Below are positions 18,705 to 20,372 of a stretch of DNA of 23,220 bases, piece after piece. Numbering within the stretch: position 1 is the stretch's first letter; each line of letters opens with the position of its first letter. The translations under genes and the position numbers were made by a program. Below the pieces are notes generated by a model, which saw nothing but the letters and a program-made list of their open reading frames with translations, was not told the DNA's origin and searched no databases. Source of the DNA: a virus; the IMG/VR virus record IMGVR_UViG_3300042507_001968, positions 1 to 23,220 of that record. One strand, 5' to 3'.

Positions 18705-18891
18705 AGATTTGAGAAACCATTTATTTGAAGCGTTGGAAATGCTGAAAGATGGTGAACTGGCAGTCGACAAAGCCGAGGCAATTGTCGGAGTTGCACAGGT
18801 GATTGTTGAGACCGCAAAAGTTGAAGTTGCTTATATTAAAGCACTTGAAACAAATAAGCATTCAGGATTTTTGCAATTAGAAAATAAATAG
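18685..18891 (+). CDS. Small conserved-type phage helical protein (68 aa)
   Basis: A 68-residue acidic helical protein with KIEDLRNHLFEALEMLKDG and AEAIVGVAQVIVETAKVEVA. This pattern (LRNHLF..LE.L.D...A.A...VAQVI...AKVEV) recalls a small family that I have seen in phages of several phyla, of unknown role. It overlaps the preceding gene by 20 bp. The promoter element for the non-coding RNA begins in its last codons and extends two bases beyond its stop. Confidence 0.6.
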   Translation: MPKNKIEDLRNHLFEALEMLKDGELAVDKAEAIVGVAQVIVETAKVEVAYIKALETNKHSGFLQLENK

Positions 18892-18900
18892 TTATATTTG
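18870..18900 (+). promoter_or_regulatory. Promoter-like element ahead of the structured RNA
   Basis: TTTG at 18870-18873 and TATATTTG at 18893-18900 are separated by 19 nt, matching the Bacteroidetes consensus. By analogy with the other copies, transcription would begin near 18905, at the base of the first hairpin. No ATG is found close by, unlike the other copies. Confidence 0.6.
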
Positions 18901-18904
18901 TTAA

Positions 18905-19050
18905 ACCAAAGGGGGTAGTGTCACACCCGCTGCCCTCTTTTGTTTGAAAATAGAACAAACTGGATTGTAAGAGAGTCCAAAGTTTAAAACGATATTAGCC
19001 TTGTTGAATTAGTTGTGCTCTTACCACGCTAATTCGATGAGGCTTTTTTT
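18905..19050 (+). ncRNA. Candidate structured non-coding RNA with complementary hairpin loops
   Basis: The 162-bp gap without a gene holds three hairpins. P1 pairs 18903-18918 with 18930-18945 (one C/T mismatch, two G-U pairs). P2 pairs AAACTGGA (18957-18964) with TCCA (18976-18979) and GTTT (18982-18985), with an AA bulge; its loop contains GTAAGAG (18967-18973). P3 pairs 18997-19012 with 19029-19044 and, past a one-base bulge, 19014-19017 with 19025-19028. The P3 apical loop is exactly CTCTTAC (19018-19024), fully complementary to the P2 loop, so a kissing interaction is possible. P3 ends in a T run. It could be a free RNA of about 146 nt or an attenuator leader for the gene at 19054. No known RNA family is recognised. 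Confidence 0.6.
18997..19050 (+). terminator. Long intrinsic terminator/attenuator hairpin (P3)
   Basis: The 16-bp outer stem (AGCCTTGTTGAATTAG with CTAATTCGATGAGGCT) has no mismatch and three G-U pairs. It continues with a 4-bp upper stem and ends with T's at 19044-19050. The ATG of the nuclease gene is 3 bp further on. No promoter-like element lies between the hairpin and that ATG, so expression of the downstream gene may depend on read-through. Confidence 0.7.
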
Positions 19051-19053
19051 ATT

Positions 19054-19560
19054 ATGAATTTTTTAGAAAAAGATTTAGAAGAAATCATCTACACATCTGG
19101 AAGGGATGTTTTAGAAAAAAAAGGTTTACCGATCAAAGGTAAATTGAGAAGACAAGTTAAAATTGGCAATTATGGTATTGCTGATCTTATTGAGTATTAC
19201 CGACCATTTTATTATCCTGACCAAAACGGAGTAAAAAATGATTTTCAAAAAGGAACTATTTTTATCTATGAATTGAAAAAGGATAAAATTTCAATGAGTT
19301 CTTTTTTACAAGCATTGGGTTATGCAAAAGGAATTCAAAGTTATTTAAGAAAAAGGAAAAAGGACCACCTCTATGATATTTGCATCAGGGTTGTTGGAAG
19401 AACAATAGATTTACAAAGTGAATTTATTTATATACCGCAATTATTAAACATTGGTGAAGATGGCTACATTGAATTTTATACTTATGATTATAATGTCAAT
19501 GGAATAAAATTTACGGATCACAGTTACCAAGATTACAAGTTACGCAAAGAGGGTTTTTAA
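19054..19560 (+). CDS. Putative PD-(D/E)XK-fold nuclease, AT-rich
   Basis: A 168-residue protein. Residues 1-45 contain FLEKDLEEIIYTSGRDVLEK and GKLRRQVKIGNYGIADLIEY. The IADLI segment is followed about 30 residues later by IFIYELKKDKISMSSFLQAL, giving the D...ExK...Q arrangement of PD-(D/E)XK nucleases, near the DUF91/NucS type. It could be a repair or branch-processing nuclease, or one acting on host DNA. By hand count GC in 19081-19380 is about 29%, against about 43% in 17701-18000 of the SSB-like gene, which suggests a separate origin. It starts 3 bp after the terminator-like hairpin of the candidate RNA. The start agrees with a conserved-looking MNFLEKDLEE opening. Confidence 0.65.
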   Translation: MNFLEKDLEEIIYTSGRDVLEKKGLPIKGKLRRQVKIGNYGIADLIEYYRPFYYPDQNGVKNDFQKGTIFIYELKKDKISMSSFLQALGYAKGIQSYLRKRKKDHLYDICIRVVGRTIDLQSEFIYIPQLLNIGEDGYIEFYTYDYNVNGIKFTDHSYQDYKLRKEGF

Positions 19561-19562
19561 TT

Positions 19563-20372
19563 ATGAGTGGCTGGATAAAATTGCACAGGTCAATTAAAGA
19601 CCATTGGCTATATAATGAAAAACGTTCGTTTAGCAAGTATGAGGCGTGGTGCGATATATTGTTAAATGTAAACTATGCAGAGGCTAAACAAGTAATTAAA
19701 GGAACGGTTTATACAATTAAACGTGGTGAGAGTATTTATTCATTGGATACTTGGGGTAAAAGATGGGGATGGGATAGGTCAAAGGTTCGTCGATTTATAA
19801 AGTTGTTAGAAAGTGATTCAATGATTGTTTTAAAATCAGACAACACAACGACACACTTAACTGTTTGTAATTATGATACTTACCAAGATGAGCGAAACGC
19901 AGATGAAACGCAGATGAAACGCAAACGAAACGCAAGTGAAAACCAAACGAAAACCGAACGAACATCAAATGAAACGCAAACGACCACAAGAGAAGAAGAA
20001 CAAGAATTAAAAGAAGAACAAACAAATAAAGAAGAACAACAAGAACAAGAAGTAGGGGTTGTTGTGAAGAATTCTAATTTACTTGAAATTTTTAATGAGT
20101 GTTGGAAGGTGTATTGCTCGTTCTCTGACAAACAACCCGGAAGTAAAGAGAAGGCGCGGAAAAAATTTCTGACAATTACTCCCGAAGAATTGGAAACCTT
20201 GCGCGGACATTTGCCCAAATTTTTGATGAATCACCAGCGCGCGAAAAAAATCGAGTACTTGCCGCATTTTGTGACATACTTGAATCAAAAAAGGTACGAG
20301 GACGAGAAAATGTCCTACCCTGACAAGGTTGCGGAGTTTGAAAACAATTTGAATAATTGGTACAAAGAATGA
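19563..20372 (+). CDS. Putative replication initiation protein
   Basis: A 269-residue protein. The N-terminal domain (about 1-110, SGWIKLHRSIKDHWLYNEKR, then SLDTWGKRWGWDRSKVRRFI) looks like a phage replication winged helix. The middle (111-162) is a repetitive, highly charged linker made of ETQMKRKRN-type units and then Glu/Gln-rich sequence. The C-terminal part (about 170-269) is a helical domain (CWKVYCSFSDKQPGSKEKAR, FLMNHQRAKKIEYLPHFVTY) similar to the C-terminal parts of phage replisome organisers. The repeats in the linker coincide with a tandem 11-bp DNA array, as in lambda O where the origin lies inside the initiator gene. It follows the nuclease gene by 2 bp. Confidence 0.65.
   Translation: MSGWIKLHRSIKDHWLYNEKRSFSKYEAWCDILLNVNYAEAKQVIKGTVYTIKRGESIYSLDTWGKRWGWDRSKVRRFIKLLESDSMIVLKSDNTTTHLTVCNYDTYQDERNADETQMKRKRNASENQTKTERTSNETQTTTREEEQELKEEQTNKEEQQEQEVGVVVKNSNLLEIFNECWKVYCSFSDKQPGSKEKARKKFLTITPEELETLRGHLPKFLMNHQRAKKIEYLPHFVTYLNQKRYEDEKMSYPDKVAEFENNLNNWYKE
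19894..19981 (+). repeat. Tandem 11-bp iteron-like array inside the replication gene
   Basis: Eight successive 11-bp units, consensus GAAACGCAAAC: units 1 and 2 are identical (GAAACGCAGAT), units 3 and 8 are identical (GAAACGCAAAC), unit 4 is GAAACGCAAGT, and units 5-7 are more diverged. An 11-bp unit is not a multiple of three, so the period is a DNA property, matching about one helical turn. It is followed by an A-rich strand with GAAGAACAA-type repeats (about 19988-20055) that could melt easily. It is a candidate replication origin. Confidence 0.65.

Follow-up and report, generated by a model that had tools for sequence, protein, structure and literature searches.

In the ColE1 RNAI/RNAII system, replication is controlled through fully complementary 7-nt hairpin loops, and the loop sequence is the identity of the element. 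In pT181-type antisense attenuators, a contact between hairpins decides the formation of an intrinsic terminator in front of a replication gene (cf. PMC4878617). Short complementary leader segments give self-specific control in the phage P4 CI RNA and the P1/P7 C4 RNA, and the phi29 packaging RNA carries two complementary loops that vary between phages. Here we describe an RNA of ~100 nt that lies ahead of DNA-replication genes in phages of Flavobacteria-type bacteria. Like the ColE1 RNAs it has fully complementary 7-nt hairpin loops, and like the pT181 attenuators it places a hairpin of terminator type before replication genes. It is probably a new self-recognising genetic switch.

We analysed the RNA in a 23,220-nt stretch of viral DNA (the window; IMG/VR record IMGVR_UViG_3300042507_001968). 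Its parts, and the two genes behind it, are as follows.

18870–18900, + strand: Bacteroidetes-type promoter read from the sequence (TTTG at 18870–18873, a 19-nt spacer, TATATTTG at 18893–18900)
18909–18939, + strand: P1, an optional hairpin predicted by folding; seen in the window, L002 and L003 but in no other relative
18957–18985, + strand: P2 (HP1), a hairpin predicted by folding, with covariation in helices 1 and 2 of alignment A3; outer stem 18957–18960 with 18982–18985, inner stem 18962–18966 with 18974–18978
18967–18973, + strand: K5, the 7-nt loop of P2 (GTAAGAG); its partner is K3
18986–18996, + strand: linker AAAACGATATT from P2 to P3; ~10–11 nt in most relatives
18997–19044, + strand: P3, a terminator-like hairpin of 20 bp with several G-U pairs, from folding and covariation
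19018–19024, + strand: K3, the 7-nt apical loop of P3 (CTCTTAC); the exact complement of K5
19044–19050, + strand: terminator tail of seven T, the last of them 3 nt before the start codon (19054)
19054–19560, + strand: first gene, a predicted PD-(D/E)XK nuclease of EndoMS/NucS-like fold (D44, ExK 73–75 and QxxxY 86–90 by alignment); it is context of the RNA and not an essential component
19563–20372, + strand: second gene, a DnaD-like helicase loader (PHROG 2514, 1.3e-29)

Transcription is predicted to start a few nucleotides 3′ of TATATTTG. The hairpin and T run lie between promoter and first start codon, the layout of an intrinsic-terminator leader. The gap (18892–19053) has no open reading frame of at least 50 amino acids on its + strand. 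Its folding energy is −50.3 kcal/mol (z = −5.6), a value reached by 0 of 200 shuffles. Apart from its partner loop, the loop 7-mer is unique in the 23-kb window on both strands. A weak hairpin at 18940–18958 competes with the outer stem at the base of P2 and might represent an alternative state. The promoter-like element, the three hairpins, the two complementary loops and the T run, together with the lack of an open reading frame, had been named in a preliminary description of this DNA, and both sequence and fold place them where it did. It had also proposed a structured RNA of three hairpins as a candidate. The structured RNA stands, with P2 and P3 as its core; P1 is missing from all relatives other than the two nearest, L002 and L003, and by this comparison is an optional insert outside the core, and the RNA does not form an RNA gene by itself but is the 5′ leader to the gene at 19054.

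Do the two loops pair? One set of relatives was built from IMG/VR homologues of the downstream protein, with no use of the RNA, and comprises 64 distinct upstream regions. In most of them a promoter and a 5′ hairpin are present, and a P3-like hairpin immediately precedes the ATG. A script detected a terminal hairpin in 56 of these regions. There, the longest stretch of the 5′ part with a perfect complement in P3 averages 7.4 nt, against 5.3 nt in cross-locus and shuffled controls, and it reaches at least 7 nt in 51 of them. Another set was collected with a DNA pattern of the P2 stem only, in two versions, leaving the loops and P3 unused. In 23 of these 24 distinct loci the P2 loop finds its exact complement 36–39 nt downstream, the sole exception being an unrelated sequence, whereas complements of other loops occur there in 12 of 504 trials.

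Alignment of 25 RNAs (A3) gives the same answer. In its protein-found rows, K5 matches its own K3 in 14 of 14 cases and the partner of RNAs with different loops in 0 of 172. The loop-loop helix is 96.6% paired, the remainder being one alignment shift (row L191), and it holds 50 double-change cells in the 25 sequences; slid controls give 3–11, and 0 of 500 shuffles score as high. RNAalifold selects this helix as the consensus unprompted. The first two positions of K5 (GT) are nearly invariant, and the other five are variable, with up to four pair types. The P2 and P3 stems covary as well. G-U exceeds A-C in the stems (30 versus 8), which points to an RNA of the + strand. Among the loop-loop pairs, by contrast, G-U is found in 0 of 169 (against the 30 in stems, P = 1.5e-6). 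Covariation thus indicates that this phage RNA is structured and that its P2 and P3 loops pair with each other. An intramolecular kiss or a link between two RNAs had been suggested; the pairing is borne out, and the contact may take either form.

A separate detector, requiring a promoter, a complement of at least 7 nt, P3 and a T run, returned 79 matches in 1.7 Mb, many of them redundant, and one match in reversed text. The 34 non-redundant RNAs carry 25 different K5 sequences. In most relatives TATATTTG lies upstream of the RNA, with a mode of 16 nt before the P2 loop, and P3 is followed by at least five T in 26 of the 33 rows scored. Only 1–3 T follow it in 4 of the 33, so termination may not be universal. 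A variant found in L011 and L084 has a 13-nt segment at the 5′ end in place of the hairpin loop (in L084 with one G-U).

The loops are the fastest-changing part of the RNA and yet are exactly matched, without G-U. Divergence at the five variable loop positions is 33% for RNAs whose other parts are 10–20% different and 62% for those at 20–30%, while that of the P2 inner stem is 3%. The same loop type is found ahead of unrelated genes, which makes it probable that whole elements are exchanged between phages. Some of the rapid loop change could come from such swapping, not from selection on each element. In one circular phage (IMG/VR 3300043436_000818) the RNA occurs twice, ~3 kb apart (L199, 852–950; L200, 3112–3208); each copy lies before replication genes, and the loops of the two differ and do not match. 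Fast but matched change and two orthogonal copies suggest an identity role for the loop sequence.

What does the RNA precede? In the window the first gene encodes a protein whose structure model (AlphaFold pLDDT 92) superposes on 5gke with Z 11.6 and an rmsd of 2.6 over 111 residues. Fold and D...ExK...QxxxY motif fit the predicted EndoMS/NucS-like PD-(D/E)XK nuclease. No Pfam or NCBIfam family matched the protein, and Foldseek alone gave no confident match. The nuclease family has an almost invariant N terminus (MxFLEKDLE) and is nearly restricted to phages. The DnaD-like helicase loader, second in the row, marks the operon as a replication operon. In relatives, whose genes were named by inspection (those of the window were matched to PHROGs), the first genes behind the RNA encode the nuclease, HTH replication proteins, DUF6291-like, DUF4373-like and GIY-YIG proteins, and others; the next genes along are mostly for a DnaB-type helicase or a DNA methyltransferase. 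Because it stands ahead of such varied first genes of replication operons, we regard the RNA as a replication-operon leader. The distance from T run to start codon is mostly within ~3–45 nt. This leaves no space for a separate promoter of Bacteroidetes type, and the operon must consequently be transcribed through P3, from the leader promoter or from farther upstream.

At the nuclease start, a short motif close to AATACGGAATGT lies directly 5′ of the ATG in about 26–30 of 77 distinct loci (for example L011, L029, L030, L034 and L082); it is possibly a translation signal. L005 and L012 share a similar 15-codon open reading frame (MKI..KSVLV..WV) that spans the linker and the P3 5′ arm and ends just before K3. 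It is possibly a leader peptide in a subgroup; as a general feature of the RNA a leader peptide was rejected, since the frame is not general.

Cultured phages carry the RNA too, as found by a structure-based script or by eye. Flavobacterium phage FCL-2 has the loops CATCCAC/GTGGATG, phage FCV-1 and its relatives GTAGAGAG/CTCTCTAC, and phage 11b CGGGCAGG/CCTGCCCG; a less canonical copy in Cellulophaga phage Nekkels_1 has ATTGGAA/TTCCAAT. Several F. columnare phages (KY979235 and relatives; five records) have the GTAGAGAG/CTCTCTAC type in common, and the FCL-2-like ones have another. These phages with two loop types are a natural pair for a comparison in coinfection. One MAG contig (L084) holds both nuclease and RNA. 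No chromosomal or prophage copy of the canonical form occurs in 397 Flavobacteriaceae genomes, the PF00589 integrase is absent from 22 carrier records, most of them fragments, and plasmids gave no match to the element. Searching phage DNA for near-identical matches to the window, or to a canonical copy, yielded nothing useful, as loops and stems change between phages. Rfam 15, which includes the C4 antisense RNA, has no match at the gathering cut-off to the window or to 15 relatives, only sub-threshold ones, in agreement with the earlier view that the layout belongs to no known RNA family, and we found no publication on the element.

How might such a leader work? The reading we favour, with moderate confidence, is that the RNA is a 5′ leader attenuator of the phage replication operon, controlled by contact between K5 and K3. 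That the RNA is transcribed, that P3 terminates and that the contact has an effect are all inferred. Transcription would start just 5′ of P2 (5′ of P1 in the window phage). P2 would fold first and expose K5; P3 would fold second, forming an intrinsic terminator right before the first start codon with a loop complementary to K5. The contact would govern how often P3 halts the polymerase, and so set how much small, terminated RNA (~100 nt) is made relative to the full-length operon mRNA. A conserved antiterminator helix was not noticed in a non-exhaustive look at A3, where the RNAalifold consensus is the loop-loop helix only.

As to direction, we suppose that contact in cis would strain P3 and favour read-through, and that terminated RNA, once accumulated, would bind nascent loops in trans and restore termination. 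The outcome would be a self-specific negative feedback on the replication genes. This assignment of direction is tentative and may well be wrong. The strain is suggested by the linker of ~10 nt, too short for both hairpins to stay closed while kissing. In the window RNA a coaxial kiss in cis with both hairpins closed needs ~100 Å and the 11-nt linker spans ~70 Å; by this crude coaxial estimate, which ignores bends, 22 of 31 RNAs have too short a linker. Opening of the P2 outer stem would relieve the constraint. The contact may thus strain P3, need P2 to open in part, or be made from one molecule to another.

Contact between molecules leads to another explanation, possible if rather doubtful: the terminated RNA is itself the product, a small RNA acting mainly in trans in copy-number or coinfection control, as the kissing RNAs of plasmids and the CI RNA of phage P4 do. 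The short linker, which makes cis contact difficult, agrees with it, as do the two orthogonal copies in one phage and loops that change fastest while remaining exactly matched, with no G-U in 169 pairs. Against it, prophage immunity is not indicated, because the 22 records have no integrase and the 397 host-family genomes no copy, and third copies of the loop sequence that could be targets number none in the window and 8 in 10 contigs, where 13 are expected by chance. Loop behaviour weighs against a purely structural 5′ pseudoknot that keeps the operon mRNA from being degraded or controls ribosome entry at the nearby start codon, with no control of transcription. Such a pseudoknot should show G-U drift and change no faster than the stems, and the loops do the opposite; nor does it account for the T run behind P3 in most relatives. 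We consider it unlikely, even though K5 is close to the 5′ end, most often 16 nt from the promoter end, the start codon is just 3′ of P3, and the 5′ segment is longer in L011 and L084.

The remaining explanations fare worse. Complementary loops that share one RNA and vary between phages, and the short linker, would suit an oligomerising RNA like that of phi29, with the K5 loop of each molecule bound to K3 of its neighbour. Yet the RNA always heads replication genes and not packaging genes, it has a terminator layout, and carriers have ordinary terminases where annotated, all of which makes oligomerisation very improbable. We give as little credence to a signal at the DNA level, with K5 and K3 as inverted operators for a phage-specific repressor or as part of a replication origin. 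Strict Watson-Crick complementarity and the adjoining replication genes would fit, but K5 and K3 sit in loops of hairpins whose stems vary by G-U more than by A-C on the + strand, and the same loop sequence stands ahead of unrelated genes. The order of promoter, RNA, terminator and nuclease gene, and the presence of the RNA at most nuclease homologues in L002–L081, once made a partnership with the nuclease attractive, either as a ribonucleoprotein or in the manner of a type III toxin-antitoxin pair. It was dropped when loci retrieved through the P2 stem alone had the RNA ahead of other genes. Nuclease homologues in L014, L016 and L051 have no RNA, and the RNA is found ahead of at least six unrelated genes, at odds with the obligate linkage of RNA and toxin gene in type III systems; this reading is hardly tenable.

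There is also a wider conjecture, doubtful as it is: in virulent phages the terminated leader might be a self-recognition RNA that silences the replication genes of co-resident genomes with the same loop address. If true, diversified and strictly self-complementary loop addresses would provide RNA-based copy control and exclusion between phages. At the least, Rfam lacks a structured RNA that is widespread in Bacteroidota phages, shows unusually clear covariation and has an evolutionary pattern that speaks for self-recognition. This RNA sits on a switch for replication genes and is present in cultured phages, and it is therefore immediately testable. It may also supply natural orthogonal kissing-loop switches.

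Set beside the known systems, the leader differs from each. The P4 system acts on a replication operon, as we propose for the leader, but P4 CI and P1/P7 C4 serve prophage immunity in temperate elements and have other layouts; in the 22 records and 397 genomes covered the leader was found with neither integrase nor prophage copy, and it had no Rfam match to C4. In the phi29 packaging RNA the loop pairing is shorter, the structure is another and the context is packaging, whereas the leader is seen in replication operons only. RNAI and RNAII are antisense transcripts of one stretch of DNA. The leader does not fit an opposite-strand regulator of the ColE1 or pT181 type: both complementary loops lie on the + strand of a single leader, and G-U outnumbers A-C in its stems as expected for that strand. 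Indeed, regulation in pT181 comes from an antisense RNA separate from its target, and in the phage leader the partner loop is the terminator's own apical loop.
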